A DNA stretch of 64,000 nucleotides from contig NZ_JADPZX010000002.1 in the NCBI RefSeq assembly GCF_015712165.1, positions 248,001 to 312,000 of the forward strand. Direction: 5' to 3'. Position 1 is the first letter of the stretch; each line of letters opens with the position of its first letter. Below the pieces are notes generated by a model, which saw nothing but the letters and a program-made list of their open reading frames with translations, was not told the origin of the DNA and searched no databases. The position numbers were made by a program, and so were the translations under genes. Positions 9,398 through 29,755 of the stretch are shown one piece after another. This DNA comes from Streptomyces spinoverrucosus (GTDB lineage: Bacteria; Actinomycetota; Actinomycetes; Streptomycetales; Streptomycetaceae).

Positions 9398-10543
9398 ATG
9401 AACGACCGTATGACGACGCCGTGGGGCGAGCTCGCGCTGGCCCGTTTTCCCGAGGACCCGCGTGATCGCCTGCGCGCGTGGGACGCCTCCGACGAGTATC
9501 TGCTCAGGCATCTCGCGGAGCAGGAGGTCCCGCTGTCCGGCACGGTCGTGGTGCTCGGGGACCGCTGGGGCGCACTGGTCACGGCGCTCGCGCGGCACAC
9601 GCCGGTGCAGATCACCGACTCGTACCTCGCCCAGGAAGCGACCCGGGCCAACCTCGCCCGGGGCGGCGTCGAGCCCGGCACCGTGTCGCTGCTCACCACG
9701 CGGGACGCACCGCCCGAGCGGATCGATGTACTCCTGGTGCGTGTCCCGAAGAGCCTGGCGCTGCTGGAGGACCAGCTGCTGCGGCTGGCGCCCGCCGTGC
9801 ACGAGGGCACGGTCGTCGTCGGCACCGGCATGGTGAAGGAGATCCACACCTCGACGCTGGACCTGTTCGAGCGGATCCTCGGCCCGACCCGCACCTCGCT
9901 CGCGGTGAGGAAGGCCCGGCTGATCTTCTGCACGCCGGATCCGGCGCTGGAGCGGCCCGCGAACCCGTGGCCGTACAGCTACACGCTGCCCGAGGGCATC
10001 GGGCAGGTGTCCGGACGTCCGGTCGTCAACCACGCGGGCGTCTTCTGCGCCGACCGGCTCGACATCGGCACGCGCTTCTTCCTCGCCCATCTGCCGCGGA
10101 CCGGCGGGGGGCGCCGGGTGGCGGACCTGGGGTGCGGCAACGGTGTCGTCGGTACGGCGGTGGCGCTGGCCGATCCGGCCGCCGAGGTGCTGTTCGTGGA
10201 CGAGTCGTTCCAGGCCGTGGCCTCGGCGGAAGCGACGTACAAGGCGAACGGGGTGCCCGGGCACGCCGAGTTCCGGGTCGGGGACGGGCTGGCCGGGGTG
10301 CCGTCCGGCAGTGTCGACCTGGTCCTGAACAACCCGCCGTTCCACTCGCACCAGGCGACGACCGACGCGACCGCGTGGCGGATGTTCTCGGGGGCGCGGC
10401 GGGCGTTGCGGCCGGGCGGCGAGCTGTGGGTGATCGGCAACCGGCATCTCGGGTACCACGTGAAGCTGAAGCGGCTTTTCGGCAACAGCGAGCTCGTGGC
10501 GAGCGACCCGAAGTTCGTGGTGCTGAAGGCCGTCAAGCGGTAG
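9398..10543 (+). CDS. rlmG: RlmG/RsmC-type rRNA (guanine-N2) methyltransferase
   Basis: Class I SAM-dependent methyltransferase of 381 residues. It has two tandem Rossmann-like halves: a degenerate N-terminal half (VVVLGDRWGALVTAL) and a catalytic C-terminal half. The SAM motif is VADLGCGNGVVG and the N6/N2-methylation signature is LVLNNPPFH. This layout is that of RsmC (16S m2G1207) and RlmG (23S m2G1835). Length and the N-terminal half favour RlmG, but assignment between the two is not certain. Divergent from the AlkB-like gene; its 3' end overlaps the convergent aldolase gene by 11 bp. Confidence 0.85.
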   Translation: MNDRMTTPWGELALARFPEDPRDRLRAWDASDEYLLRHLAEQEVPLSGTVVVLGDRWGALVTALARHTPVQITDSYLAQEATRANLARGGVEPGTVSLLTTRDAPPERIDVLLVRVPKSLALLEDQLLRLAPAVHEGTVVVGTGMVKEIHTSTLDLFERILGPTRTSLAVRKARLIFCTPDPALERPANPWPYSYTLPEGIGQVSGRPVVNHAGVFCADRLDIGTRFFLAHLPRTGGGRRVADLGCGNGVVGTAVALADPAAEVLFVDESFQAVASAEATYKANGVPGHAEFRVGDGLAGVPSGSVDLVLNNPPFHSHQATTDATAWRMFSGARRALRPGGELWVIGNRHLGYHVKLKRLFGNSELVASDPKFVVLKAVKR

Positions 10544-11396
10544 CCGGCGCTGTGAGCGTCCGCAGGATCCCAGCCACCGTCCGCACCATCGCCTCGCGGC
10601 CCACGCTGAGGTACTTGCGGGAGTCGACGGCCTCCGGGTGGGCGGCGAGGAACTCCCTGATCGCGCCGGTCATGGCGATGTTGAGGGCGGTGCCGACGTT
10701 GACCTTGGTGATGCCGGCCGCGACCGCCGTCGTGAGTTCGTCGTCGGGGACTCCGGAGGAGCCGTGCAGGACGAGGGGGACGTCCAGGGTGCCGGAGAGG
10801 CGTTTGAGGAGGGCGTGGTCGAGGGTGGCCGTGCGGGTGGTCATGGCGTGGCTGCTGCCGATGGCGACGGCCAGCGCGTCCACCGCCGTGTCCGCGACGA
10901 AGGCCCGGGCCTGGGCGGGGTCGGTACGGGCGCCGGGTGCGTGGGCGTCCAGCGGCGGCTGTCCGTCCTTGCCGCCGACCTGACCCAACTCGGCCTCGAT
11001 CCACAGCCCTTGGGCGTGCGCCCAGTCGGCGGCGGCACGGGTCGCGGCGCGGTTCTCGGCGTAGGGCAGGCGTGCGGCGTCGTACATGACGGAGCTGAAT
11101 CCGGCGTCCGGCGCCTGCCGGAGCAGGCTGTCGCTCCGGATGTGGTCGAGGTGCAACGCGACGGGTACGGCGGCGCGTTCGGCGGCGGCGACGGCGGCGC
11201 GGGCGAGCGGGAGCAGTCGGCCGTAGCGGAACTTGACGGCGTTCTCGCTGACCTGGAGGACGACGGGGCTCCGCACGGACTCGGCGCCGGCGATGACGGC
11301 CTCGACGTGTTCCAGCGTGATGATGTTGAACGCGGCGACGGCGGAACGGGCCTCGGCGGCACGCGTGACGAGCTCACCGGTGGTCACTAGGGGCAC
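10533..11396 (-). CDS. Class II (zinc) ketose-bisphosphate aldolase, GatY/KbaY-like
   Basis: Cleaves a ketose 1,6-bisphosphate (tagatose- or fructose-type) to DHAP and an aldehyde phosphate. 287 residues. Zinc and catalytic residues: D84-H85 in ALHLDH, H183 in IGSSHAM and H211 in LVLHGSSGVPDDE; the phosphate loop is in ITKVNVGTALN. The start is the GTG at 11396, preceded by AAAGGAG. The open frame continues to 11609 only because it reads through the tandem repeat described below. Downstream of the SIS isomerase in the same direction, it fits an Aga/Gat-type amino-sugar or galactitol pathway under the DeoR regulator at 12663. Confidence 0.88.
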   Translation of the reverse strand: MPLVTTGELVTRAAEARSAVAAFNIITLEHVEAVIAGAESVRSPVVLQVSENAVKFRYGRLLPLARAAVAAAERAAVPVALHLDHIRSDSLLRQAPDAGFSSVMYDAARLPYAENRAATRAAADWAHAQGLWIEAELGQVGGKDGQPPLDAHAPGARTDPAQARAFVADTAVDALAVAIGSSHAMTTRTATLDHALLKRLSGTLDVPLVLHGSSGVPDDELTTAVAAGITKVNVGTALNIAMTGAIREFLAAHPEAVDSRKYLSVGREAMVRTVAGILRTLTAPATA

Positions 11397-11400
11397 GGCT

Positions 11401-16885: not shown

Positions 16886-18433
16886 TCAAGTCTCCACCGT
16901 CAGACGCTTCGTCGTCTCCATGAGGGACACGGTAAAGGGATGGCGGGGCGCGTCCAGCACCTTGTCGGCCAAGCCCTGCTCGACCAGTTCGCCCGCGTCC
17001 AGGACGGCGACTCGATCGGCCAGGCGGGCGGTGTCCAGGTCGTGGGTGATCAGGACGAGGGAGAGGTCGTCGCGATCGCCTTCGCGCAGCAGGCCCGCGA
17101 GGACGTCGAGGATGCCGCGGCGGGTGACCGTGTCGAGGCCCGAGGTGATCTCGTCGCAGATCAGGACCCGGGGGCGGGCGAGCAGGGCGCGGGCGAGGGC
17201 GGCACGCTGGAGTTCACCGCCGGAGAGCCGGGCAGGGTGACGGCCCGCCAGTTCCTCCGGGAGGCCGAGACGAGCGAGCGTGGCCAGGGCCTCCGCCCGG
17301 GCTGCCTGCTCGTCGGCACCGCGCAGGCGTACGGCCGTACGGGCGACCTGGGCGAGGACCGGCCGGTACTCGTCGAAGGCGGCGCGGGCGTCCTGGAAGA
17401 CGTACTGCACCGCCGCCAGCTGCGCACGGTCCCGCTGCCGCAGACTGCGCGGCAGGGGGCGGCCGTCGAGCAGGACCTCTCCGCTGTGGTCGCGGTGGAG
17501 CCCGGCCAGACAGCGGGCGAGGGTGGTCTTGCCGCTGCCGGAGCGGCCCACGACGGCCAGGCATTCGCCCGCGTGGAGGGTGAGCTCCGGGACGCGGACC
17601 GTCGTACGGCGGTGACCGTCGCGGTGGTGGGCCGTCAAGCCCCGTACGCACAAGGATCCGGCTCCTGGTGACCGGTTCTCGGCCACCGGCGTCCGCGCGT
17701 CCAGCAGTCGCCGGGTCCACTCGTGACGCGGCGCCGTCCACAGCCGCTCGGGCGGGCCCGACTCGACGACCTGCCCCGCGCGCATGACCAGGACGTCGTC
17801 GGCGAGCGCGCGCACGACATCGAGGTCGTGACTGAGCAGGACCACCGCGATGCCCTTGGCCGCGACCGCCGCGAGTTCGTCGACGATCCGGCTCGTGGTC
17901 AGCGCGTCCTGGCCGGTGGTGGGTTCGTCGGCGACGATGACCCGGGCGCCGAGCAGGAGCGCCTGGGCGAGGACGACGCGCTGCTGCTGGCCACCGGACA
18001 GCTGGTGCGGGTAGCGGCTCAACAGCGCTTCCCCGTCGGGAAGTTGCGCGTCGGCCAAGGCCCGCAGGACGCGTGCGCGAGCCGCAGCCTTGCGCTCACG
18101 TCGGGGCAGGTCCCGTACCCGCTCGCGGGCGATGTCGTACAGGAGCGCCGAGACCCGCCGGGCCGGGTTGAGCACGGCCGCCGGGTGCTGGGGCACATAG
18201 CCGACGCCCGCCGGTGCCCGTACGGCACCGGTGACCCGGGCGCCCGGCGGGTACTCCCCGAGCAGCGCGAGGCCGGTGGTGGTCTTGCCGCTGCCCGAGG
18301 CCCCGACCAGCGCGGTCACCTTGCCGGGCAGGACCCGGAGGTGGACGCCGTCGACGATGGCCCTGCCGTCGATCTCGACGCGCAGGTCGGTGATCTCCGC
18401 GACGGGTTCCGGTTGCTTCAGCACATCGCTCAC
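16886..18433 (-). CDS. Dipeptide/nickel-type ABC transporter, double ATP-binding protein (DppD-DppF fusion)
   Basis: 515-residue protein with two complete nucleotide-binding domains. First: Walker A GASGSGKTT, signature LSGGQQQRVVLAQA, Walker B VIVADEPTTGQD, LLSHD. Second: Walker A GRSGSGKTT, signature LSGGELQRAALARA, Walker B VLICDEITSGLD, LITHD. Such fusions replace separate D and F subunits in oligopeptide, nickel and metallophore importers. The GTG start at 18433 overlaps the stop of the permease gene. It is the last gene of the ten-gene operon 16886-28102 and powers uptake through the two permeases upstream. Confidence 0.93.
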   Translation of the reverse strand: MSDVLKQPEPVAEITDLRVEIDGRAIVDGVHLRVLPGKVTALVGASGSGKTTTGLALLGEYPPGARVTGAVRAPAGVGYVPQHPAAVLNPARRVSALLYDIARERVRDLPRRERKAAARARVLRALADAQLPDGEALLSRYPHQLSGGQQQRVVLAQALLLGARVIVADEPTTGQDALTTSRIVDELAAVAAKGIAVVLLSHDLDVVRALADDVLVMRAGQVVESGPPERLWTAPRHEWTRRLLDARTPVAENRSPGAGSLCVRGLTAHHRDGHRRTTVRVPELTLHAGECLAVVGRSGSGKTTLARCLAGLHRDHSGEVLLDGRPLPRSLRQRDRAQLAAVQYVFQDARAAFDEYRPVLAQVARTAVRLRGADEQAARAEALATLARLGLPEELAGRHPARLSGGELQRAALARALLARPRVLICDEITSGLDTVTRRGILDVLAGLLREGDRDDLSLVLITHDLDTARLADRVAVLDAGELVEQGLADKVLDAPRHPFTVSLMETTKRLTVET

Positions 18434-19230
18434 GGGCGTCGTTCCTTGTCTGTACTGCGTTTGTCCAGTGCGGCGTCGAAGAGCAGGTTGCTGCCCGTCG
18501 TCAGGGCGACGATCAGCAGGGCGGGGACGACGACGGCCCAGGGCTGCACGGCGAGGCCGGTGCGGTTGCGGTCGACCATGACCGCCCAGTCGGCGGCGTC
18601 CGGCGCGACTCCGACGCCGAGGAAGGCGGCCGTCGCCACCAGGTAGAGCACGCCCGTGAGTCGCACCCCCGCGTCGGCGGCGAGGGTGCGCAGCGTGGCG
18701 CGGCCGACGTAGCCGACGGCCATCCGCCACCAGGTCTCGCCCTGCATCCGCAGCGCCTCGACGGCGGGCCGGGCGGCGGCCTGAGCGGCGGCGGCGCGGA
18801 CGATCCTGGCGGCGTCCGGGATGTTGACCAGGGCCACGAGCAGCGCGAGTCCGACCGGGCCGGGTTCGAACACCGCCGCCACCAGCAGGATCAGCAGCAG
18901 CGACGGCACGGCCAGCAGCACGTCCAGGGGCCGCATCAGGAGTTCCTCCAGCGAGCGCCGGTGGGTGAGCGCGCTGAGCAGGCCGAGGGGTATCGCGACG
19001 GCGTACGCCAGGGCCGTCGCCGCGAGCGCGGTCAGCACCACCGGGCGACCGCCGTGCAGCACCTGCTGCCACACGTCCCGTCCGACGAAGTCGGTGCCGA
19101 GCCAGTGCCCGTCCCCGAGCGTGAAGGACATCGCGCGCGGTCCGGGTTCGCCCGCGAACAGCGGCCCCAGCAGGGCGAGTACGAGGGGTACGCCGATGAT
19201 GACCCCACCGAGCAGGAATCGGGACCTCAC
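18430..19230 (-). CDS. ABC transporter permease, DppC/NikC type
   Basis: 266-residue inner-membrane subunit with five or six hydrophobic segments and an extracytoplasmic loop after the first (GDGHWLGTDFVGRDVWQQVL, the typical DppC 'GTDxxGRD' motif). The cytoplasmic EAA-type loop is around AAARPAVEALRMQGETWWR. It forms the pore with the DppB partner, whose stop overlaps its ATG; it overlaps the ATPase gene in turn. Imports what the lipoprotein at 20282 binds, by context possibly a metal chelate. Confidence 0.92.
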   Translation of the reverse strand: MRSRFLLGGVIIGVPLVLALLGPLFAGEPGPRAMSFTLGDGHWLGTDFVGRDVWQQVLHGGRPVVLTALAATALAYAVAIPLGLLSALTHRRSLEELLMRPLDVLLAVPSLLLILLVAAVFEPGPVGLALLVALVNIPDAARIVRAAAAQAAARPAVEALRMQGETWWRMAVGYVGRATLRTLAADAGVRLTGVLYLVATAAFLGVGVAPDAADWAVMVDRNRTGLAVQPWAVVVPALLIVALTTGSNLLFDAALDKRSTDKERRP

Positions 19231-20285
19231 GCGGCCACCCCCGCACGCGGTGCGAACCTGTGGGCGACCAGATCAGCGCCCAGATTGAGGACGACGGTCA
19301 GCACACCGAACACCACCGCGAGCCCCTGCACGACCGGCACGTCCCGCTCGGCCACGGCGTTGAGCAGGACCGTGCCCAGTCCGGGGATCACGAAGAGGGC
19401 CTCCACGACGATCACGCCGCACAGCAGCCAGTCGACGGTACGGGCGAGTTGCTGAGCGGCCGGAGCGAGGGCGTTGGGCAGGGCGTGCGCGTAGCGGACG
19501 CGGGCGCCCGGGACGCCGTAGCGGCGTGCGTGGACCGCGTACGGCGCCGCGAGGGCGTCGATCATGCCGGCCCGCACCAGGCGGGCCAGCGAGCAGACCG
19601 GCCGGGAGAGCAGCACGAGCACCGGCAGGACCAGCGCGGCCGGATGGGCGAGCAGGTCGGTGCCGTAGCCGACGGCGGTCGGCGGCAGCCAGCCCAGCCG
19701 GAGTGCCACCACGCCGACCAGCAGCACGCCCAGCGCGAACTCCGGGACCGCGTACACGGCGAGCGTCGCCGAGCTGACCAGCCGGTCGATCAGCCGCCCC
19801 TCGTGCCGCGCGGCCAGCACGCCGAGGCCGAAACCGAGCGGCAGCAGCAGGACGACGGTGAGCGCGGCCAGCAGCAGGGTGGGGCCGAAACCGTCGCTGA
19901 TGTACTGGCTGACCGGGCGCCCGGAGGCCAGCGAGGTGCCGAAGTCGCCGTGCGGCAGGCCGGCCGCCCAGTCGGCCAGCCGCTCGTACGCCGGTCGGTC
20001 CAGGTGCATGGCCTCCCGGATCGCCGCGATGCGCGCCGGGTCGGGCTGGTCGCCGGCCAGGGCGACGGCGGCGTCGCCCGGCAGCGCCTCGGTGAGCGCG
20101 AAGACCAGCAGCACCACGGCCACGGTTTGAACTCCCCCGAGAATCAGGCGCCGGGCGACGAAGGATGTGCCACGGTATGCCGACTGTCGGCCGCGGCGCC
20201 CTCGTGGCTTGTCGCGCGGTTCCCCGCGCCCCTTGTCGGCGCTGTCGAACCGCACGTGACTTCGCCGGGCCTGCTTGGGCTTCAC
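19227..20285 (-). CDS. ABC transporter permease, DppB/NikB type (start uncertain)
   Basis: Second channel subunit. The recognisable protein begins at FVARRLILGGVQTVAVVLL and runs through six membrane segments, including LPGDAAVALAGDQPDP and GLPHGDFGTSL in the first external loop, and RRYGVPGARVRYAHALPNA at the EAA loop. The GTG at 20285 overlaps the lipoprotein stop, giving 352 residues, about 45 more than usual at the N-terminus. No closer in-frame ATG/GTG exists before the first membrane segment except GTG at 20255. The extra stretch spans a repeat-like element (20211-20232), so the N-terminus may be an insertion by-product. Confidence 0.85.
   Translation of the reverse strand: MKPKQARRSHVRFDSADKGRGEPRDKPRGRRGRQSAYRGTSFVARRLILGGVQTVAVVLLVFALTEALPGDAAVALAGDQPDPARIAAIREAMHLDRPAYERLADWAAGLPHGDFGTSLASGRPVSQYISDGFGPTLLLAALTVVLLLPLGFGLGVLAARHEGRLIDRLVSSATLAVYAVPEFALGVLLVGVVALRLGWLPPTAVGYGTDLLAHPAALVLPVLVLLSRPVCSLARLVRAGMIDALAAPYAVHARRYGVPGARVRYAHALPNALAPAAQQLARTVDWLLCGVIVVEALFVIPGLGTVLLNAVAERDVPVVQGLAVVFGVLTVVLNLGADLVAHRFAPRAGVAA
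20211..20232. repeat. Streptomyces-type intergenic repeat (REP-like hairpin)
   Basis: The core GCGCGG-TTCC-CCGCGC with CCC after it forms a small hairpin. It resembles a GC-rich sequence that, from memory, is scattered between genes in many Streptomyces genomes. Here it lies inside the reading frame of the DppB permease, before the first membrane segment. Confidence 0.5.
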
Positions 20286-21844
20286 CCGAGCCACACCTTG
20301 TCGAACCGCGCCCAGTCGAGGGTGTTGGCGGGCGCGTCGCGCTCGACGCCCTTCACGTTGCGGGCCGTTCCGAGGATCCAGTCGGCGAAGCCCCACACCA
20401 GGAACCCGCCCTCGGTGTACAGGCGGCGCTGCATACGTTCGTACACCGCGGCCCGTTCGGTCTTGTCGCGCGTGGACTGGGCCTGCTGGTAGAGCGCGTC
20501 GAAGTCCTTGTGCTGCCACTTGGTCGCGTTGGTGGTGGAGTCGGTGAGCAGCCGCTGGGAGATGTGCGCCTCGATGGGCATGGCGCCGGAGCGGTAGCAG
20601 GCGAGGGTGCCGGAGTCGAGGACGTCGCTCCAGTAAGAGTCCTTGCTGCCCATCTTCACCTCGATGGTGACGCCCGCCTTCCTGGCCTGGTCGCGGAAGA
20701 TGCTCGCGGCCTCGGTGAACCCGGCGGCGACGGCCGACGTGTCGAGGGTGACCTTCAGGTTGTCGGCGCCGGCCTGCTTCAGCAGCGCGCGGGCCCTGTC
20801 GAGGTCCTGTTCGCGCTGGGGGAGAGCGTCGGCGTAGTACTCGTAGCCCTTGCCGAACAGGTCGTTGCCGATCTCGCCCGCGCCGGACAGTGCGCCGTCG
20901 ACGAGTTCCCTGCGGTCGGCGATGAGGAAGAACGCCTGCCGGACCCGCCTGTCGTCGAAGGGCGGCCGGTCGGTCTTCATGACGAAGGCCTGCATGGCGC
21001 TGTTGCGCAGGCGGACGATCTCGATCTGCCCCTGGTTCTCGTGGGCGCGGGCGGTGGTGGGGTTGAGTTCGTGGGCGTACTCGACCTGGCCGCCGAGCAG
21101 GGCGTTGACGCGGGCGGACTCCTCGTTGGCGACGACGAACTCCAGCTCGTCGAGGTACGGGGCGCCGTCCCAGTAGTCGTCGTAGCGGCGGACCACGGCC
21201 GAGCGGCCCGGGGTGAAGGAGGCGAACCGGAACGGGCCGGAGCCGATCGGCTTCTTGTCGAAGTCGGTGGCGCCCTCGGGCACGATGTACGCGCCGAACG
21301 CGGCCAGGACGTTGGGGAATTCGGCGGTCGGCCGCTTCAGCACGAACTCGATGCTCCGCTCGCCGGTGGCGCGGCTGGCGGCGAGGTCGATGGGCTCCAG
21401 GGACGCCTTGGCGCGGAACGCCTGCTTGGGGTCGGCGATCCGGCGGTAGCTGTGGAGGACGTCGGCGGCGGTGACCGGCCGGCCGTCGTGGAAGGTGGCC
21501 TCGCGCAGGGTGACCTGCCAGCGGTCGAGGGTCTTGTTCGCCTCCCACTTGGTGGCGAGGCGGGGTTCGGCGGCCAGGTCGGGGCCGTAGTCGGCGAGCT
21601 TGTCGAACAGCGCCTTGGCGCGGGCCACGTCCACGAAGAGGTTGGCCAGGTGCGGGTCGAGGGTTTCGCTGGCGCCGCCGCCGGCGAAGGCGGCACGCAG
21701 CCGTCCGCCGCGCCGGGGCTTGCCGTCGCCCTCGCTCGTGGCGGGGCCGTCGGAGGAGCCGCAGCCGGTGAGGGCGAGCGCGCCGAGGGAGGCGGCGCCG
21801 GTGGCGGCGAGGAAGCCGCGCCGGTGCAGACCGGGGAGGTTCAT
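20282..21844 (-). CDS. Extracellular solute-binding lipoprotein, family 5 (Dpp/Opp/Nik type)
   Basis: 520-residue surface receptor of the importer. The N-terminus has a twin-arginine-like HRRGFLAATGA, then a hydrophobic core and lipobox LTGC with the lipidated cysteine at residue 28. Family-5 features: ASETLDPHLANLFVD, REATFHDGRPVTAADVLHSY, PIGSGPFRFASFTPG and RRYDDYWDGAPYLDEL. Family members bind peptides, nickel-histidine, opines or other metal chelates. It is encoded between the methyltransferase and the permeases, 28 bp after the former. The neighbourhood (metal-box promoter, chelation-domain protein) suggests a metallophore ligand rather than a nutrient peptide. Confidence 0.92.
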   Translation of the reverse strand: MNLPGLHRRGFLAATGAASLGALALTGCGSSDGPATSEGDGKPRRGGRLRAAFAGGGASETLDPHLANLFVDVARAKALFDKLADYGPDLAAEPRLATKWEANKTLDRWQVTLREATFHDGRPVTAADVLHSYRRIADPKQAFRAKASLEPIDLAASRATGERSIEFVLKRPTAEFPNVLAAFGAYIVPEGATDFDKKPIGSGPFRFASFTPGRSAVVRRYDDYWDGAPYLDELEFVVANEESARVNALLGGQVEYAHELNPTTARAHENQGQIEIVRLRNSAMQAFVMKTDRPPFDDRRVRQAFFLIADRRELVDGALSGAGEIGNDLFGKGYEYYADALPQREQDLDRARALLKQAGADNLKVTLDTSAVAAGFTEAASIFRDQARKAGVTIEVKMGSKDSYWSDVLDSGTLACYRSGAMPIEAHISQRLLTDSTTNATKWQHKDFDALYQQAQSTRDKTERAAVYERMQRRLYTEGGFLVWGFADWILGTARNVKGVERDAPANTLDWARFDKVWLG

Positions 21845-21872
21845 GAGGGTTCCTTGAGCAGAGAGGGACAGG

Positions 21873-22664
21873 TCAGTGGGGGGTGGTGAGGCGTGCGACG
21901 ACGTGCAGCCGGTCGGCGTCGGTGGTCGCGCCGGGCAACCGGCCCTCGTGCCAGGGCGGTTCGGTGCGCGGTCCCGGGCCGTCGTGCAGCGCGAGCACCT
22001 GGAAGCCGTGCGCGGCCAGCAGGTGTCGCAGCTCCTGCGGGAAGAGCAGCCGCCAGGCGGAGCGCTGCTCCACGGGCGCCGATCCCTCGTCCGCGGTCCA
22101 TGTGCGGACCCGGCGCAGGAGCTGGGCGGTGCGGTCCACGGTGAGGGTGGTGGTGGAGCGGTACTCCGTGCCCTGCCAGGTGAAGGAGTTCACCTTCGGC
22201 GTGTCGAGCAGGTCCGTGCGGCCGAGGAAATAGGCGCCGTTGCGCATCTCCGCGACGAGCAGGCCGCCCGGGGCGAGGGCGTGACGGCAGGAGGTCAGGA
22301 AGCCGTCGAGCTGGTCGTTGGTGTGGCAGTACAGCAGCGCGCTGTCCAGGCACACCACCGCGTCGAACGCTCCCCGGCCCAGATCGAATCCGTGCAGGTC
22401 GGCACGGACGTACGCGGGCCCCGGGTGGTGCGTGCGGGCGTACCCGAGCATCGCCTCGGAGAGGTCCGCGCCGGTCACCCGGCGCCCCGCGTGGTGCAGA
22501 TGGGCGGCGTCGCGTCCGGTGCCGCAGCCCATGTCCAGGACGCGGGGTCCGGCGTCGTACCGCCGCAGGCAGTCCTCGGTCCAGCGGCCGGCCAGCCGCT
22601 CGGGGTCGGGGAAGCGGGCCTCGTACAGCTCGGGGTTGTCGGTGAGGAGGTTGGTGGTTGTCAC
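21873..22664 (-). CDS. Class I SAM-dependent methyltransferase
   Basis: 263-residue small-molecule-type methyltransferase. SAM-binding motif I VLDMGCGTGRDAAHLHHAG at about residues 41-59, motif II ADLSEAMLGYAR, motif III FDAVVCLDSALLY and LAPGGLLVAEMR. No target-recognition domain for nucleic acid or protein is seen, so a metabolite is the likely substrate. It starts 10 bp after the MFS gene and precedes the binding protein, so it is part of the operon. The inferred role is tailoring (N- or O-methylation) of the operon's product. Confidence 0.88.
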   Translation of the reverse strand: MTTTNLLTDNPELYEARFPDPERLAGRWTEDCLRRYDAGPRVLDMGCGTGRDAAHLHHAGRRVTGADLSEAMLGYARTHHPGPAYVRADLHGFDLGRGAFDAVVCLDSALLYCHTNDQLDGFLTSCRHALAPGGLLVAEMRNGAYFLGRTDLLDTPKVNSFTWQGTEYRSTTTLTVDRTAQLLRRVRTWTADEGSAPVEQRSAWRLLFPQELRHLLAAHGFQVLALHDGPGPRTEPPWHEGRLPGATTDADRLHVVARLTTPH

Positions 22665-22674
22665 AGGGGGCTCC

Positions 22675-23916
22675 TCAGGCCGCGGCCGGTACGGCGGTCC
22701 GCGGCGGGGTCGGCAGCGACTTCCGGCGGTGCAGCAGGGCCACGCCGAGCGCGGAGGCCAGTCCGAACAGGGCGCAGCACGCCCAGGGCAGCCAGGGGGC
22801 GTCGCCCTCCCCGGTGTCCATGGCCCAGCCGACGACGGTGTTGCCGAGGGCGGCGGCGATGCCGGAGACGACGTAGAAGATCCCGTAGTAGGTGCCGGTC
22901 AGCTCGGGGCGGCCGAAGCCGGGGATCAGCTCCATGACGAACGGCGAGGCGATCATGAGGCCGACGTAGAGCATCAGGGTGCCGAGCAGGATCGGTACGG
23001 CGTCCAGCAGCCCGGCGGAGGTGGTGCCCGCCACGGTGGCCGGCGGCACGAAGGCCAGGCCTGTCAGCAGCAGGCCGAGGCCGATCCAACGGGCCCTGCT
23101 GCCGCGCCGCTTGAGGGCGCGGGTGAGGCGCAGTTGCAGGGTGAGGTTGGCGAGGGTGCCGACGAGGAACACCAGGCCGGCGGCGCCGTCCCAGCCGGTG
23201 GCCCGGCGGGCGCCGGCCGGCAGCAGCAGGTAGAGCTGGTTCTCCAGGGTGAACAGGCCGACCATGGCCAGCGCGAACGCCAGGAACGCCCGATTACCTA
23301 CGACCTCCCGCCAGTCGGCGAGGACGCCGCCCTTGCTCGGCTCGACCTCCCGCGCGGGCAGGACCAGGGCCTGCGCGACGGTGAGGACCGCGAAGATCGC
23401 GGCGGCGGTCAGGGCGGACGTGCGGAAGTCGACGAGCAGGAGCAGGCTGCCGAGCAGCGGGCCGATCAGCGCGCCGGTCGTGGCGAACACGTTGAACAGC
23501 GCGAACGCCTCCGCCTTGCGCTCCCCCGCCTCCTGCGCGAGGTAGGCCCGTACGGCGGGGTTGAACAGCGCCCCGGCAAGCCCGCTCAGTACGGACGCGG
23601 CGAGCAGCACGGGCAGCCCGTCGCCGAGCGCGAACAGCCCGAACCCGACGGCCCGCAGCCCGCACCCGGCGATGATCACGCCCCGCGCGCCGAGCCGGTC
23701 GGAGGCGGAGCCGCCGATGATGAACAGGCCCTGCTGGCTGAGGTTGCGCACGCCGAGGACGATGCCGACGACGGCCGCCGACATGCCGAGGTTCTCGGTG
23801 AGGTGGGTGGCGAGGTAGGGGATGAGGAGGTAGAAGCCGGTGTTGACGCCGAGCTGGTTGACCAGCAGGAGGCGTACGGCGAGCGGGAACCGGCGTATCT
23901 CGTGCCATGTCCTCAT
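22675..23916 (-). CDS. MFS transporter, probable exporter of the operon product
   Basis: 413-residue protein with about 12 membrane segments; after the second, the loop GGSASDRLGARGVI matches motif A of drug/metabolite exporters. The ATG at 23916 overlaps the epimerase stop (ATGA). An MFS exporter between biosynthetic genes and an importer is the arrangement known from staphylopine/pseudopaline and EDDS-like systems, where it secretes the metal-free chelator. That role is inferred from context; the sequence itself only shows an MFS permease. Confidence 0.9.
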   Translation of the reverse strand: MRTWHEIRRFPLAVRLLLVNQLGVNTGFYLLIPYLATHLTENLGMSAAVVGIVLGVRNLSQQGLFIIGGSASDRLGARGVIIAGCGLRAVGFGLFALGDGLPVLLAASVLSGLAGALFNPAVRAYLAQEAGERKAEAFALFNVFATTGALIGPLLGSLLLLVDFRTSALTAAAIFAVLTVAQALVLPAREVEPSKGGVLADWREVVGNRAFLAFALAMVGLFTLENQLYLLLPAGARRATGWDGAAGLVFLVGTLANLTLQLRLTRALKRRGSRARWIGLGLLLTGLAFVPPATVAGTTSAGLLDAVPILLGTLMLYVGLMIASPFVMELIPGFGRPELTGTYYGIFYVVSGIAAALGNTVVGWAMDTGEGDAPWLPWACCALFGLASALGVALLHRRKSLPTPPRTAVPAAA

Positions 23917-24947
23917 GCCGCCACCTCCTCGACGCCGAGCCCCGGCAGGTCGCTCGCGCGGACGAAGCCGTCGGTGCCGCCGATCCCGGTCCACGGGTCG
24001 TGCGCGAGCAGCAGGTGTCCGTCGAGGTCGGCCCAGCGGGCGCGGTCGGCGAGGTGGACGGCGGGGGCGAGGCCGAGGGTGCTGGCGGTGAGGCAGCCGA
24101 GCATCAGCGCGGTGCCGCTGCCCTCGACGGCCTCGGCGATACGCAGCGCCGCGTGGACGCCGCCGCACTTGGCGAGCTTGACGTTGACGCCGTGCACGCG
24201 TCCGGCGAGGCGGCGGACGTCGTCGAGGCTCACGGCGTCCTCGTCGGCGATGACCGGCAGCGGGGAGCGCTCGGCAAGGGCGCCCAGCGTCTCCGGATCA
24301 CCGGGGGCGAGGGGCTGTTCGACGGCTTCGACACCGAGGTCGGCGAACCGGGCCAGCAAGTCGGAGGCCTGCGCCGACGTCCAGGCCCCGTTGGGGTCCA
24401 GGAGCAGCCGGGCGCCGGGCGCGGCGTCGCGGATGACGCGGACGCGCTCGATGTCGTCCTCGGGGTCGGGGGTGCCCGCCTTGACCTTGAGGACCTCGAA
24501 ACCGGCGGCGGCCAGGCGCCGGGCCTCGGCGGCCGCGTGCAGGGGCGCGCAGATGCCGATGGTGCGGGCGGTGGCGGTCACGGGCGCGGAGGGCGCGCCG
24601 AGGAGGCGGTGGACGGGGCTGCCCGCGCGCTTGCCGACCAGGTCGAGGAGCGCGGATTCGACGGCGGCGGTGACGGCGGGCGGCGAGTCACCGGCCAGCT
24701 CCCCGGCCCGCAGCGCCTCCAGGGCGCTCTCCGGATCGGCGAGGCGGTGCAGGTCGACGGCCGCGACGAGGCGTTCGAGGGTGGCCGTGTCGAGGCCGTA
24801 GTAGACGCTGGTGACGGCCTCTCCATGGCCGTACAGCCCTTCGTGTTCGACGGTCAGCCACACGGCGTCACGGGTGGACATGGTGGAGCGGGAGATGCGC
24901 AGCGGCTCGGTGAGATCGAGGCGTACGGTGCGCTGGGTGGCCTTCAC
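23913..24947 (-). CDS. Enolase-superfamily dipeptide epimerase-like protein
   Basis: 344-residue member of the muconate-lactonising/L-Ala-D/L-Glu epimerase subgroup. The KxK acid-base motif is in EVLKVKAG, metal ligands are in LLLDPNGAW, AVEQPLAPGD and PVIADEDAV, and the second catalytic lysine is in VNVKLAKCGG. These enzymes deprotonate the alpha-carbon next to a carboxylate and can epimerise dipeptides or N-acyl amino acids. The GTG start at 24947 overlaps the stop of the PLP gene. With an ATP-grasp ligase in the operon, epimerisation of a ligase-made dipeptide-like product is a reasonable idea. Confidence 0.88.
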   Translation of the reverse strand: MKATQRTVRLDLTEPLRISRSTMSTRDAVWLTVEHEGLYGHGEAVTSVYYGLDTATLERLVAAVDLHRLADPESALEALRAGELAGDSPPAVTAAVESALLDLVGKRAGSPVHRLLGAPSAPVTATARTIGICAPLHAAAEARRLAAAGFEVLKVKAGTPDPEDDIERVRVIRDAAPGARLLLDPNGAWTSAQASDLLARFADLGVEAVEQPLAPGDPETLGALAERSPLPVIADEDAVSLDDVRRLAGRVHGVNVKLAKCGGVHAALRIAEAVEGSGTALMLGCLTASTLGLAPAVHLADRARWADLDGHLLLAHDPWTGIGGTDGFVRASDLPGLGVEEVAA

Positions 24948-26025
24948 TGGTGTACTTCCGGGGAGTCGAGCGGGTCGGTGACACGGGTGCAGCGCACCCA
25001 TCCGGTGGCCTCGGCGGCGCGTGGGTGCGGGATCTCGACGGGGCGCCGGGCCGCGTCGGCGGGGTCGATGCCGTGCGCGGTGGTGAAGTCGTCGTCGAAG
25101 ACCGTGCCGAGATAGCGGTGCGGGCCGTCGGGGAAGACGGTGGCGACCACCGCGCCCGGGTGGACGCGGGCCGCCCAGGCGGAGACGAGCGCGACCGCGC
25201 CGGTGCTCCAGCCGCCGGTGACGAAGCTGCCCCGGGCGAGCCGGCGGCAGCTGTCCACCGCCTCGGCGGGGCCGACCCAGTGCACCTCGTCGAAGGCGTC
25301 GTAGGCGACGTTGCGGGGGTGGATGCTGCTGCCGAGGCCGCGCATCAGCCGGGGGCGGGCGGGCTGGCCGAAGATCGTCGACCCGGTCGCGTCGACGCCG
25401 ATCAGCCGCAGGGCGGGCCAGTGCCGGCGCAGCGGGCCGACGATGCCGGCGCTGTGCCCGCCGGTGCCGACGCTGCACACCAGGACGTCCAGATGGTCGA
25501 GCTGGACGGCGAGTTCGGCGGCGAGGGAGGCGTAGCCGGTGGTGTTGTCCGGGTTGTTGTACTGGTCGGGCCAGTAGGCGTCGGTCAGGTCGGTGAGCAG
25601 CTCCCGCAGCCGGGCGAGGCGGGCCGCCTGCCAGCCGCCCTGGGGGCGGGCCGGTCGACGATCTCCAGGCGTACGCCGTGGGCGCGCAGCAACTGGCGCA
25701 TGGACGGCTCCAGTTCGCTGTCGCCGACGAGCACCACGGGGTGGCCGAGTGCCTGTCCGGCGAAGGCGAGCCCGAGGCCCAGCGTCCCGGACGTCGACTC
25801 CACGACCGGCGCGCCCGGCCGCAGCTCGCCGCGCTCGCGGGCGCCGAGCAGCATCGACACGGCGGCCCGCGCCTTCATCCCGCCCGCCGCGAGCCCTTCG
25901 AGCTTGGCCCAGAAACCGGGGTGCGGGCCGGGCAGTTCGGTGCCGATCCGGACGAGCGGCGTTCGGCCGAGGAGGTCGAGCAGCTCGGGGCGCGCCGGGG
26001 CGCGCACGGCGGCGGTGGTGGTCAT
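24944..26025 (-). pseudogene. PLP-dependent cysteine synthase-like enzyme, one-base frameshift
   Basis: Fold-type II PLP enzyme (CysK/SbnA-like). The N-terminal part starts at ATG 26025 (ELLDLLGRTPLVRIG; Schiff-base lysine in GGMKARAA; ESTSGTLGLGLA substrate loop). It loses its frame after LEIVDRPAP near 25644. The rest reads in the next frame: GGWQAARLARLRELL, then YWPDQYNNPDNTTGYAS, the phosphate loop SVGTGGHSAG, and so on to 24944. Restoring one base in the five-G run 25642-25646 gives a normal product of about 360 residues. SbnA-type homologues make 2,3-diaminopropionate precursors in metallophore pathways. Either a real lesion or a sequencing error; gene overlaps on both sides are intact. 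Confidence 0.88.
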
Positions 26026-26849
26026 CGATCGCCCTCGCGGTAGCGGTGGATGATGCCGGGTCCGCCGTCCAGCCAGAAGAAGGGGTACGGCTCCGCGCAC
26101 ACCGCGCTCACGCCCTGCCCCAGGAAGCGGGGCAGGACGGCGCTGCCGGTCTGGGCGAACATCACCAGCTGCTTGCCGTGCCGCAGCGCGTGCCGGCGCA
26201 GTGGGTCGAAGGTGCCGTTGCCGAGCGTCATACCGGAGACGAGCAGCGCGTCGCAGCGGTCGGCGGCTGCGAGGGCGTCGGTGACGACCGGCTCGCCCCA
26301 CTCGGTGACCCCGCCCTTGAGGTCGCAGGGTATGTAGCCGATCCCGCGTGAACGCAGGGCTTCCAGCAGTGAGTTGACGACACCGACGACCAGGACGGTT
26401 GCCCCGGCCGGCAGATCGAGCAACTCGACGACGGCACGCGCGCGGGTCCGTGACTTCTCCAGCGAGGACCCGGCGGGCAGGCGCACCGCGTCCGCCCCGT
26501 GGTCGGGTGTGTGCGGGGTGACGTGCATCAGGTAGGCGTCGAGTGCCGCGACGCGCACCGGCGGCAGCGGGTGGTCGAGGAGCCGGGCCACGTCCGCGCC
26601 CACACAGTCGTCGAGCGCGCTCTCGGGCAGCGCCCCGGGTTCGACGGCACAGGAGCCGACGGCCCCGGCCAGGCGCAGGCTGAGGACCTCGTTGCGGTAG
26701 CCGGTGCCGCGGCCGGTGTGCCGTACGGCCTGCCGGGTGGTGAAGGCGACGGCGATGCGCTGGGTGGCGGGGGCGGGGCCGAGTGCTCCGGCCCGGACGC
26801 GGTCCACGAGATCGGCGAGTGTCCGGTACGTCGCCATGTCGACGGTCAT
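26022..26849 (-). CDS. DUF4213/DUF364 'putative heavy-metal chelation' protein
   Basis: 275-residue protein with the two-domain architecture known as DUF4213 (N-terminal, about residues 15-110) plus DUF364 (Rossmann-like, about 130-270; VLVVGVVNSLLEALRSRG, VTDALAAADRCDALLVSGMTLGNGT). Pfam describes this pair as putative heavy-metal chelation domains on structural grounds; no reaction has been proven as far as I know. It overlaps the ATP-grasp gene upstream and the PLP gene downstream by four bases each. Its place in an operon with a Fur-type box, exporter and Nik/Dpp importer supports a link to metal handling or to building a chelator. Confidence 0.85.
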   Translation of the reverse strand: MTVDMATYRTLADLVDRVRAGALGPAPATQRIAVAFTTRQAVRHTGRGTGYRNEVLSLRLAGAVGSCAVEPGALPESALDDCVGADVARLLDHPLPPVRVAALDAYLMHVTPHTPDHGADAVRLPAGSSLEKSRTRARAVVELLDLPAGATVLVVGVVNSLLEALRSRGIGYIPCDLKGGVTEWGEPVVTDALAAADRCDALLVSGMTLGNGTFDPLRRHALRHGKQLVMFAQTGSAVLPRFLGQGVSAVCAEPYPFFWLDGGPGIIHRYREGDR

Positions 26850-28102
26850 CGGATCACCAGCCCGGCGCGCAGCCCGGCCAGCAGGGCCTCGACGCGGTCG
26901 CGGGCACCGGGCCCGTCCGCGTCGCCCGCCATGACGTGTCCGAGGTACTCGTTGTTGCTGCCGGCCGCCTTCACCGCCCTGCCGGGCTCGGCGAGCTGTA
27001 CCTCCAACACGCCGGGCGTGTCGTGGAGTCCGGTGCCGTCCAGGGTTTCGAGGGTGCCGACGGTGTGCGGGACGAGGAAGCCGATGGCCGCGCTGCGCAG
27101 CCCGGTGTCGGTGCGGCGCAGGTCTGGGGTGCGGCCGAGGGCGACGTCGACGAAGGCGGCGGCGAGGTCGATGCCGGTGACGTGGCGGACCAGCTCAGTG
27201 ATGCGGTTGCCGGCGGGGCGGGGGTTGACCTCGACGACACGCGGTCCGGCGGAGGTCAGCTTGACCTCGGTGTGCGCGACCACGCCGTCGGTCAGCCCGA
27301 GCGCCTTCAGGGCACCCAGCGCGGTCTGCTCGGCGGCCTCGGTGTCGGCGGCGCTCAGGGCGGCCGGGAACATGTGACCGGTCTCGATGAAGGCGGGCGC
27401 CCCGCCGATGCTCTTGTCGGTCACACCGACGACGTGCACCGCGCCCCCGTGCGAGACGGTCTCGACGCTCACCTCGGGGCCGTCCAGCAGCTCCTCGAGG
27501 AGTACGGCGGGCGCCCGGCGCTGTCCACGCGCGTTGACCGGGAAGTCGGCCAACGCCCGGTAGGCGGCGGCGAGTTCGGCCTCGTCGTCCACGCGTCGTA
27601 CGTACATGCCCGCGCACAGGTCGACGGGCTTGACGACCAGTGGGTAGCCGATCTCCCGTGCCGCCCGGGCGAGGTCCGTCCACTCCTCGTGGACGGCGAA
27701 GCGCGGCTGGGGCAGTTGGGCGTCGGCGAGGATGCGGCGGGTGGCGTCCTTGCGGCAGGCGTTCTCGACCGCTTCGGGGCCCGGCCCGGGCAGGCCGAGG
27801 CGGCCGGCGATCCGGGCCGCCGTCGGCAGGTAGTAGTCGCAGGACGTGAGCACTCCGTCGAAGCCCAGCACCGCGTGCAGCCGTTCGACCTCGGGCAGCA
27901 GGGCGTCGGGGTCGTTGGTGTCGGCGGTGACGATGTTGCGGGCGCCCAGCAGCGGATGCGCCGTTCCCTCCGGCGCCGACCGCAGATAGTGGTGCAGGTC
28001 ACGAGTGAGGAACGTGAACTCGTGACCGCCCTCCCGAATCGCACGTGGCAGCAGCCTGCTCATCGAGCCGACCCAGCTCTCGACCACCAGCAGATGACCC
28101 AC
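26846..28102 (-). CDS. ATP-grasp ligase
   Basis: 418-residue carboxylate-amine ligase-like enzyme: N-terminal Rossmann-like domain (LLVVESWVG, FLTRDLHHYL), then the ATP-grasp fold (LVVKPVDLCAGMYVRRV; VLLEELLDGPEVSVETV; VVEVNPRPAGNRITELV with the metal-binding Glu and Asn). Family members form amide bonds between amino acids or attach amino acids to small acids. It is the first gene of the ten-gene operon. The GTG start at 28102 has GGGGAG just upstream, about 95 bp from the Fur-type box. It is the best candidate for joining the building blocks of the putative metallophore; the substrates are unknown. Confidence 0.88.
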   Translation of the reverse strand: MGHLLVVESWVGSMSRLLPRAIREGGHEFTFLTRDLHHYLRSAPEGTAHPLLGARNIVTADTNDPDALLPEVERLHAVLGFDGVLTSCDYYLPTAARIAGRLGLPGPGPEAVENACRKDATRRILADAQLPQPRFAVHEEWTDLARAAREIGYPLVVKPVDLCAGMYVRRVDDEAELAAAYRALADFPVNARGQRRAPAVLLEELLDGPEVSVETVSHGGAVHVVGVTDKSIGGAPAFIETGHMFPAALSAADTEAAEQTALGALKALGLTDGVVAHTEVKLTSAGPRVVEVNPRPAGNRITELVRHVTGIDLAAAFVDVALGRTPDLRRTDTGLRSAAIGFLVPHTVGTLETLDGTGLHDTPGVLEVQLAEPGRAVKAAGSNNEYLGHVMAGDADGPGARDRVEALLAGLRAGLVIR

Positions 28103-28196
28103 AACTCCCCTTTTTAGGCATGTAGTTCAGACGTCAGGGCAGCACGACGGGGCCCCGCTCGGGCAGGGCGCCGGGTTGTGCGCACGACACGTTAGC

Positions 28197-28215
28197 GATA
28201 ATGATTCCCATTGTC
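28197..28215. promoter_or_regulatory. Fur-family (Fur/Zur) box at a divergent promoter
   Basis: The 19-mer starting GATAATGATT and ending CCATTGTC matches 15 of 19 positions of the classical Fur box. It has 7-bp arms GATAATG/CATTGTC around 5 bases. On the minus strand, ATGACA (28213-28218) and TAACGT (28190-28195) can serve as -35 and -10 with 17 bases between, so the box covers the promoter of the ATP-grasp operon. On the plus strand, GATAAT could be a -10 for the hydrolase gene at 28250. Whether iron, zinc or another metal is sensed cannot be told. Confidence 0.75.
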
Positions 28216-28249
28216 ATCTGACCATCCGTCCATTGTCCGGAGCACCCCC

Positions 28250-29755
28250 GTGCCTCTCCCCCCACGCCGCACCGCGCTGCTGTGCGTCCTCGCGGCCGCC
28301 GCCGCGACCCTGATCCCCACGAGCCCGACACAGGCCGCCGCCCCGCCCATCCGCTTCGGCGCCTGCCCCGCCTCCGTACCGGCCCCGCCCGCGCCGGACC
28401 GTGTCGAGTGCGGCAGCATCGCCGTGCCGCTCGACTGGGAACGCCCACAGGGGCGGCGTATCGAGATAGCCGTCTCCCGCGTCCGCGCCTCGGGCACACC
28501 CGCCGAACGCCGTGGCGTCCTCCTGGTCAATCCCGGCGGACCGGGCGGCTCCGGACTGCCGTACGCGGTGACGAAGCGGGCCAAACTGCCCGAGAGCGTG
28601 CGGCGTTCTTACGACGTCATAGGCTTCGACCCACGCGGCGTCGGCCACAGCGCCCCCGTCGACTGCGGTCCGATGGGCGGCCTCTTCGACAGCCCGGGCC
28701 CGGACCCGGTGCCGGTGGACCCGACGGCGGAGCGCGCCCACCTCGCCTCGCTCCGGGACATGGCCGAGGACTGCGCTGTGGGCGCGCGCGAGGTACTGCC
28801 GTATCTGTCCACCGCGCAGACCGCCCACGACATGGACGCGATCCGGGCCGCGCTCGGCGAGCCGTCGACGAGCTTCCTGGGTGTGTCGTACGGCAGTTAC
28901 CTCGGCGCCGCGTACGCGGCCCTGTTCCCGCACCGGGTGGGCCGTATGGTCCTCGACAGCGTGGTGGGCCCGTGGAGTTGGTACGACTTCGATGTCGTCC
29001 AGAGCCGGGCGCTGCTGCGGCAGCGGGACCTCTTCCATGCCTGGACGGCCGCACACCCGGACCGCTTCGGGCTGGGCGGTCGTGCGGCGGACGTCCGCGA
29101 GGCCTATCTGCGGGTGCGGCGCGGGCTGGCGGAGCGGCCGGTGGAGGGTTTCGGTGCGGCGGAGTTCGACCGGGGCGTGTACCGCGCGCTGGGCCGCACC
29201 GAACGCTGGGCGGGGCTCGCCGACGGTCTGCGCGCCTACCTGCGGGAGGGGACGGTGACGGGCCTGCGCCCGGCCTCACCCTTCGACAGCGCGTCCTCGC
29301 GCAACTACGAGGCGGCGAACCGCATCGTCAAGTGCGCCGACGGGCCCGCGCCCACGCCGGACCGCATCCTGACGGACATCCGCCGCACCCGCCGTATCGA
29401 CCCCCAGCCGGTGCTGACCGGCATGGAGGCGTCGACCTGCGCGTACTGGCGGCACCGCGCCACCCACCGCACCCCGCTCGGCGGCCCGGACGCGCCGCCG
29501 CTGCTGCTGGTGGCCTCGGCGCACGACCCGGTCACGCCCGTCGCGGGCGCGCGGGAGCTGCGGCGGCTGTTGCCGGGCTCACGGCTGGTGACGCTGGAGA
29601 ACGACTACTCGCACGGCGTGTTCGCGAGCCGGGGGAACGCGTGCGTGGACGACACAGTGGCGGCGTATCTGGTCGACGGGGTGGTTCCGGTGAGGGATGT
29701 GCGGTGTGCGGGGCCGGGGTTGCCGGAGCCGTCAGGACGCCCGGACCACGGGTGA
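28250..29755 (+). CDS. Secreted alpha/beta hydrolase, tripeptidyl-aminopeptidase-like
   Basis: 501-residue exported serine hydrolase. The GTG at 28250 starts a signal peptide (PPRRTALLCVLAAAAATLI, AQA-type region TQAAAPP). The TTG at 28211 is unlikely because it lies inside the metal box. Features: oxyanion region LLVNPGGPGGSG, GFDPRGVGHS, nucleophile serine in GVSYGSYLG, acid Asp in SAHDPVTPV and His in DYSHGVF within the TAP-like C-terminal domain. Relatives (SlpD/Tap of Streptomyces) remove peptides from the N-terminus of secreted proteins. It is divergent from the metallophore-like operon and may share the metal-responsive promoter region; a direct role there is unproven. Confidence 0.9.
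   Translation: MPLPPRRTALLCVLAAAAATLIPTSPTQAAAPPIRFGACPASVPAPPAPDRVECGSIAVPLDWERPQGRRIEIAVSRVRASGTPAERRGVLLVNPGGPGGSGLPYAVTKRAKLPESVRRSYDVIGFDPRGVGHSAPVDCGPMGGLFDSPGPDPVPVDPTAERAHLASLRDMAEDCAVGAREVLPYLSTAQTAHDMDAIRAALGEPSTSFLGVSYGSYLGAAYAALFPHRVGRMVLDSVVGPWSWYDFDVVQSRALLRQRDLFHAWTAAHPDRFGLGGRAADVREAYLRVRRGLAERPVEGFGAAEFDRGVYRALGRTERWAGLADGLRAYLREGTVTGLRPASPFDSASSRNYEAANRIVKCADGPAPTPDRILTDIRRTRRIDPQPVLTGMEASTCAYWRHRATHRTPLGGPDAPPLLLVASAHDPVTPVAGARELRRLLPGSRLVTLENDYSHGVFASRGNACVDDTVAAYLVDGVVPVRDVRCAGPGLPEPSGRPDHG

Follow-up and report, generated by a model that had tools for sequence, protein, structure and literature searches.

A putative Zur-controlled, NRPS-independent zincophore operon with a DUF364 protein in Streptomyces spinoverrucosus and related actinomycetes

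Staphylopine and pseudopaline are described as being under Zur control (PMC8000910), and the cnt clusters for staphylopine, pseudopaline and bacillopaline are reported to combine an Opp or FecCD importer with an exporter of the major facilitator superfamily (MFS) or of the EamA type (PMC7438024). The [S,S]-ethylenediaminedisuccinate ([S,S]-EDDS) pathway (aes) of Amycolatopsis japonicum is presented as actinobacterial, Zur-controlled and dependent neither on nonribosomal peptide synthetases (NRPS) nor on NRPS-independent siderophore (NIS) synthetases (PMC4993170, PMC6103462), and coelibactin is given as the product of a Zur-controlled Streptomyces zincophore pathway (PMC5472717). Here we analyzed a ten-gene operon in a 64,000-nucleotide stretch of the Streptomyces spinoverrucosus genome (assembly GCF_015712165.1, contig NZ_JADPZX010000002.1, positions 248,001 to 312,000; hereafter the window, G+C content 72.3%). 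Judging by its promoter and gene content, it is likely a Zur-repressed, NRPS-independent zincophore operon whose products would make a chelator, export it and import it again.

The ten genes run in one direction on the minus strand, from 28102 down to 16886, and encode in 5' to 3' order an ATP-grasp ligase, a DUF364 protein, a pyridoxal phosphate (PLP) enzyme, an epimerase, an MFS protein, a methyltransferase, a substrate-binding protein (SBP), two permeases and a double ATPase (Table 1). All ten genes named on one strand in an initial annotation of the sequence were found; seven of the nine junctions are 4-bp overlaps, the exceptions being gaps of 10 bp between the MFS and methyltransferase genes and of 28 bp between the methyltransferase and SBP genes. 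The importer and exporter layout of the cnt clusters is also found here, and the operon, whose product is a predicted one, can be likened to the opine zincophore systems as a small amino-acid chelator system. However, no match to a nicotianamine-synthase-like enzyme or to an opine dehydrogenase was found in its ten proteins with Pfam and NCBIfam, as the initial annotation had held in setting the enzyme set apart from that of staphylopine, and a DapF-type racemase, present in cnt systems, was not matched among the ten proteins either. By its predicted proteins, the operon would thus function much as the opine-type zincophore systems do, yet it differs in class, since both defining enzymes of the opine type gave no match.

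Like the [S,S]-EDDS system, the operon is actinobacterial, has a Zur-type box and is of neither NRPS nor NIS type, no NRPS domain and no IucA/IucC synthetase having been matched among its proteins. The [S,S]-EDDS pathway uses SbnA-type chemistry. It differs from the operon, in a distinction drawn from gene content, in that no SbnB or ornithine-cyclodeaminase partner was matched in the ten proteins (Pfam, NCBIfam), which instead include the ATP-grasp, DUF364 and epimerase proteins. Coelibactin, in turn, is NRPS-based, unlike the operon, and a coelibactin-like NRPS lies elsewhere in the same genome. With staphyloferrin B (sbn) the operon shares an SbnA-like PLP enzyme, SbnA being the top match of an intact orthologue (L044), but neither SbnB nor the IucA/IucC synthetases of that pathway were matched among its proteins, and its box is of the zinc rather than the iron type. 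The bacilysin (bac) set also comprises an L-amino-acid ligase and an MFS exporter; compared with such sets, the operon adds the Zur box, a chelate-type importer and the SbnA-like and DUF364 enzymes. Among the matches listed from the open-licence literature, covering titles and the beginnings of abstracts, no description of the operon was found, which is weak evidence of novelty.

The same genome holds a second cluster with a Zur box (C1:1518-1527k; L069 10169-19156) that is a closer look-alike of EDDS. It encodes a FecBCD importer, an SbnA-like PLP enzyme, a class I/II aminotransferase, a MATE exporter, an SbnB-like protein and a PLP decarboxylase, and presumably resembles the EDDS-type aminopolycarboxylate pathways.

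The regulation and layout of the operon are well supported by the sequence. A scan of named genomes gave 548 related loci, of which the closest 80 were kept, a choice that biases this set towards the operon's own clade (clade A, at least 70% identity). The Zur motif of S. coelicolor is given as tGaNNatSatNNtCa, i.e. TGANNATSATNNTCA (PMC5472717), and the box of the operon lies about 94-114 bp upstream of the ATP-grasp start, on the minus strand. In the 77 of the 80 loci with enough upstream sequence, the 250 bp upstream of the ATP-grasp gene matched this motif at 10/11 in 49 loci, at 9/11 in 26 and at 8/11 in two; at least 9/11 was thus reached in 75/77 promoters, against 24/1476 random windows from the same loci, none of which reached 10/11. 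The box had been annotated as Fur-like: its assignment to the Fur family stands, but a Zur/zinc box fits better than a Fur/iron one. When the 8.85-Mb genome was searched with the family 21-mer derived from the box, allowing up to three mismatches, five distinct sites were found (one control match), located, besides the operon, at an alternative ribosomal protein block, a coelibactin-like NRPS and the second SbnA-type cluster (two sites). The 15-mer with one mismatch gave ten distinct sites (two control matches), some of them at znuA-like loci (C1, C3) and others at a znuB-like locus and at two importer neighbours; the site at C1:1949623, inside an amino-acid-type ATP-binding cassette (ABC) gene, looks like chance. 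The znuA-like, znuB-like, coelibactin-like and ribosomal neighbours were named by reading their translations, without a family scan, and comparable kinds of Zur targets in S. coelicolor are among those listed in PMC6103462. Because the box fits the Zur motif and its other genomic copies mainly adjoin zinc-type loci, the regulator of the operon is probably Zur and the metal probably zinc.

The transport genes leave some room for a different metal. The top NCBIfam models of the importer subunits are nickel or nickel/cobalt importers, and for the double ATPase the staphylopine proteins CntF and CntD come next after NikD. Moreover, staphylopine-type chelators are described as binding several metals (PMC8000910). 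The operon could therefore serve a metallophore for nickel, cobalt, iron or several metals, de-repressed by Zur or by a different Fur-family protein, but this is unlikely given the fit of the box to the Zur motif, the zinc-type loci around most of its other copies and the fact that all these importer scores fall below their cut-offs. The layout of synthesis, export and re-import under a metal box, as first proposed for a metallophore system, is borne out by the gene content and the conserved box. In the same genome, a Zur-like box at C4:39553 (L200) lies about 60 bp upstream of a family-5-like binding-protein gene, which perhaps belongs to a further zinc-type importer.

All ten genes were found in the same order in 74/80 loci, and in all 60 loci that span 19 kb or more. 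What would speak against a metallophore had been named at the outset, a conserved neighbourhood lacking exporter, importer or metal box; in clade A the full operons argue for a metallophore. Among 295 sampled Streptomyces genomes, relatives of the DUF364 gene occur in 123: clade A in 69 (S. spinoverrucosus itself included), a cousin clade B with 39-44% identity in 55 and both in only two, as counted by hand from the genome listing, while a distant copy (28-29%) occurs in three, one of them with nothing else. Since 12.9 genomes with both clades would be expected (Fisher p 3e-5, ignoring phylogeny), it looks as if clades A and B fill the same role. In a class-wide sample, 30/394 genomes matched, 15 of them outside Streptomyces; of the 14 of these loci that were examined, two (L175 and L181, from other families) carry the full ten-gene set at about 44-72% identity and 12 are of the cousin type. 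No relative was found in viral contigs.

For the cousins, all counts rest on 22 hand-picked loci. The PLP, DUF364 and MFS genes are present in 22/22, the last close by and often divergent across the box, so that the neighbourhood holds fully for this core and for the most part for the rest: an importer was found in 18/22, of the FecBCD type in 16 and of the Opp type in two (L058, L059), and a box of at least 9/11 in 20/22 (at least 10/11 in 15/22). The box scan covered 400 bp with promoter starts placed by hand from tblastn and a simple gene caller, and as eight of the 22 loci had two windows, 30 windows were scored, with at least 10/11 in 18/30 and at least 9/11 in 28/30, against 3/703 and 37/703 controls, respectively. 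Of the 22 cousins, 15 encode a methyltransferase-like protein from a different family (top model a putative methyltransferase, 43.9 bits, cut-off 162), and L058 adds PhyH.

Among the predicted biosynthetic enzymes, the ligase contains ATP-grasp and L-amino-acid ligase C-terminal domains, which predicts an L-amino-acid ligase. Its closest solved structure is the L-amino acid ligase BL00235 (3vot, 114 bits), with BacD also among the nearest in PDB, and among NCBIfam models the ATP-grasp portion of PRK02186 scores highest (213 bits against a cut-off of 625). In enolase-type epimerases the D/E/D residues bind the metal and the DxD motif binds ammonium. When the enolase-type protein was aligned with 3iji, 4gfi, 3jva, 1jpd and 3rit, the KxK motif, the D/E/D residues, the second lysine and the DxD motif were all present, and these positions are kept in 75-77 of 77 orthologues, which suggests a dipeptide epimerase. 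The idea of an epimerised product was thus refined: with dipeptide-epimerase residues occurring beside an L-amino-acid ligase, it is probably a dipeptide that is epimerised.

These same enzymes would suit a bacilysin-like dipeptide antibiotic or metalloenzyme inhibitor: the PLP enzyme, ligase and epimerase would make it and the MFS protein would carry it out of the cell, with the Zur box only setting the timing to zinc stress and the Opp system taking up peptides. The nearest structures of the ligase and its pairing with an MFS exporter, as in the bac set, are consistent with such a product, and Opp-type importers also carry peptides. However, an importer is part of the operon in 74/80 loci and matches nickel-type models best, and 16 of the 22 cousins with the PLP, DUF364 and MFS core carry importer genes of the Fec, siderophore type instead (by Pfam on two of them), so that an antibiotic or inhibitor appears very improbable.

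The PLP enzyme is best read from its relatives. In the intact orthologue (L044:9930-11006) SbnA is the top match in both PDB and NCBIfam, and it is also that of the C-terminal piece in the window. In SbnA, K47 is described as the PLP lysine and R132, Y152 and S185 as the residues selecting O-phosphoserine (PMC12414870). Of the SbnA positions, K47, S75, R132, Q151 and Y152 are kept in 80/80 orthologues, which suggests an SbnA-type enzyme.

Several observations weigh against a functional zincophore operon as outlined here. The gene for the PLP enzyme, although present as first annotated, is frameshifted in the S. spinoverrucosus assembly and was recognized as SbnA-like through its orthologue: one frame, ending at 25585, covers residues up to about 128, and another, ending at 24944, covers those from about 124 on. 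Its N-terminal piece matches CysM (74.8 bits) before SbnA (69.5), and L044 scores 243.7 bits, below the cut-off of 349.95 of the SbnA equivalog TIGR03945, with SbnA still the top family. Moreover, S185 is replaced by G and N77 by T in 80/80 orthologues, and because of these replacements the donor or acceptor of the enzyme may differ from that of SbnA. The SBP has Lmo0135 and AgaA rather than CntA or NikA as its top PDB matches. Within clade A, the locus L056 ends after the MFS gene, with the rest of the operon gone, and has no recognizable box (7/11), while the box of L175, a full operon outside the genus, reaches only 8/11. In the cousins, no importer was found in four of the 22 loci (L177, L178, L182, L189), and two of the 22 have no 9/11 box within 400 bp; the boxes of L189 and L053 lie just outside this distance.

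The frame change also raises the possibility that the operon is decaying in this strain, with production at an end and only the uptake of a chelator made by others left. Runs of C are common places for assembly errors. The change, at residues 124-128 or so, falls within a C-run near 25640, the gene is a single frame in 79/80 relatives and the other nine genes have intact open reading frames; decay is thus rather doubtful.

The zincophore reading gives the DUF364 protein, probably the core of the operon, a setting that its structural relatives lack. The protein has the DUF364 fold and was matched by PF04016 with 26.0 bits (cut-off 23), which confirms the DUF364 half of its first description, while the DUF4213 half was not recovered, having no Pfam match at E <= 0.001. 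A PDB sequence search gave no significant match (best E 0.55), and identity to the DUF364 structures Dhaf4260 (3l5o) and PH1506 (3npg) is only 12-14%; compared with these, the gene is tied here to an SbnA-like enzyme, an exporter, an importer and a Zur box. The idea that the protein is a hidden nicotianamine-synthase-like enzyme was set aside: among the matches listed from a structure search, DUF364 entries came first, followed by enolase-superfamily and PLP-enzyme folds, and none was such an enzyme, which excludes nothing.

From this gene content we infer the production of a chelator, zinc as its ligand, the substrates and order of the steps and the reaction of the DUF364 protein. When zinc is plentiful, Zur would occupy the box at 28196-28216 and keep the operon off, and zinc scarcity would turn it on. 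The SbnA-like enzyme may then combine O-phospho-L-serine, or a similar activated serine, with an amino acid to give a unit of the 2,3-diaminopropionate type bearing additional carboxylates, to which, or to a close relative of which, the ATP-grasp ligase would couple an amino acid. The enolase-type enzyme would epimerise the dipeptide, the methyltransferase would add a methyl, and the DUF364 protein could catalyse another committed step within a nucleotide-type pocket. The chelator would leave the cell through the MFS protein, and its metal complex would return through the ABC importer of the Opp/Nik type.

Taking clade A and the cousins together, we lean slightly towards the view that DUF364, the SbnA-like PLP enzyme and the MFS protein form the core of an unrecognized class of Zur-controlled, NRPS-independent zincophores across actinomycetes, in which the importer (Opp or Fec), the methyltransferase and the tailoring enzymes (ligase plus epimerase, PhyH, GHMP kinase) are exchanged from lineage to lineage. 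If so, DUF364, for which no reaction is known, would be a chelator-building enzyme with directly testable chemistry. Roughly one in four of the sampled Streptomyces species (69/295) would carry a type of zincophore pathway for which no description was found and about a fifth (55/295) its cousin, which would account for zinc foraging in many soil actinomycetes that use neither NRPS nor opine enzymes, and would direct attention to biodegradable small chelators of a new kind. The findings also suggest that searching by regulator box can uncover metallophore pathways which rules based on enzymes might overlook.

Table 1. Coordinates of the operon, its box and the divergent neighbour in the window.
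Feature	Position	Strand	Basis or remark
Zur box TGACAATGGGAATCATTATCG	28196..28216	-	two overlapping 15-mers, each 9/11 against TGANNATSATNNTCA
ATP-grasp ligase, L-amino-acid-ligase type, GTG start, 418 aa	26846..28102	-	ATP-grasp_4, ATPgrasp_N, LAL_C2
DUF364 (PF04016) protein, 275 aa	26022..26849	-	Pfam
SbnA-like PLP beta-substitution enzyme, frameshifted near 25640	24944..26025	-	pieces 25585-26025 and frame ending 24944
Enolase-superfamily epimerase, putative dipeptide-epimerase type	23913..24947	-	KxK, D/E/D, K, DxD
MFS exporter (predicted)	22675..23916	-	top NCBIfam MdtH, 169.5 bits, cut-off 469
Class I S-adenosylmethionine-dependent methyltransferase	21873..22664	-	family and structure matches
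Family-5 substrate-binding lipoprotein (SBP)	20282..21844	-	top NCBIfam Opp5A/NikA, 165 bits, cut-off 600
DppB/NikB-type permease	19227..20285	-	family profiles
DppC/NikC-type permease	18430..19230	-	family profiles
Fused double ATPase	16886..18433	-	top NCBIfam NikD, CntF, CntD, every score below cut-off
TAP-like alpha/beta-hydrolase peptidase, divergent, on the other side of the box; optional neighbour	28250..29755	+	36/80 related loci

That the box might serve the divergent peptidase alone was considered and rejected, because the peptidase gene was found, on the opposite strand, in no more than 36/80 loci (20/80 loci are short); in a subset of them, the peptidase may be co-regulated via the common intergenic box. 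In the Fec-type cousin L054, a GHMP-kinase-like gene (10363-11397) lies between the DUF364 and PLP genes, with a similar-looking frame in L173, and its product might provide the PLP enzyme with a phosphorylated amino acid. Around the distant DUF364 genes of L061 and L063 (29 and 27% identity) no operon core was found, and L062 gave no match. In L061 (8065-10459) and L063 (7563-12414) the DUF364 gene stands directly behind a radical-SAM gene, adjoined in L063 by NRPS domains, in what appears to be a different use of the fold. In L009 and L015 (Actinomycetota), a distant DUF364 gene with 21% identity is located between two ATP-grasp-ligase-like genes.

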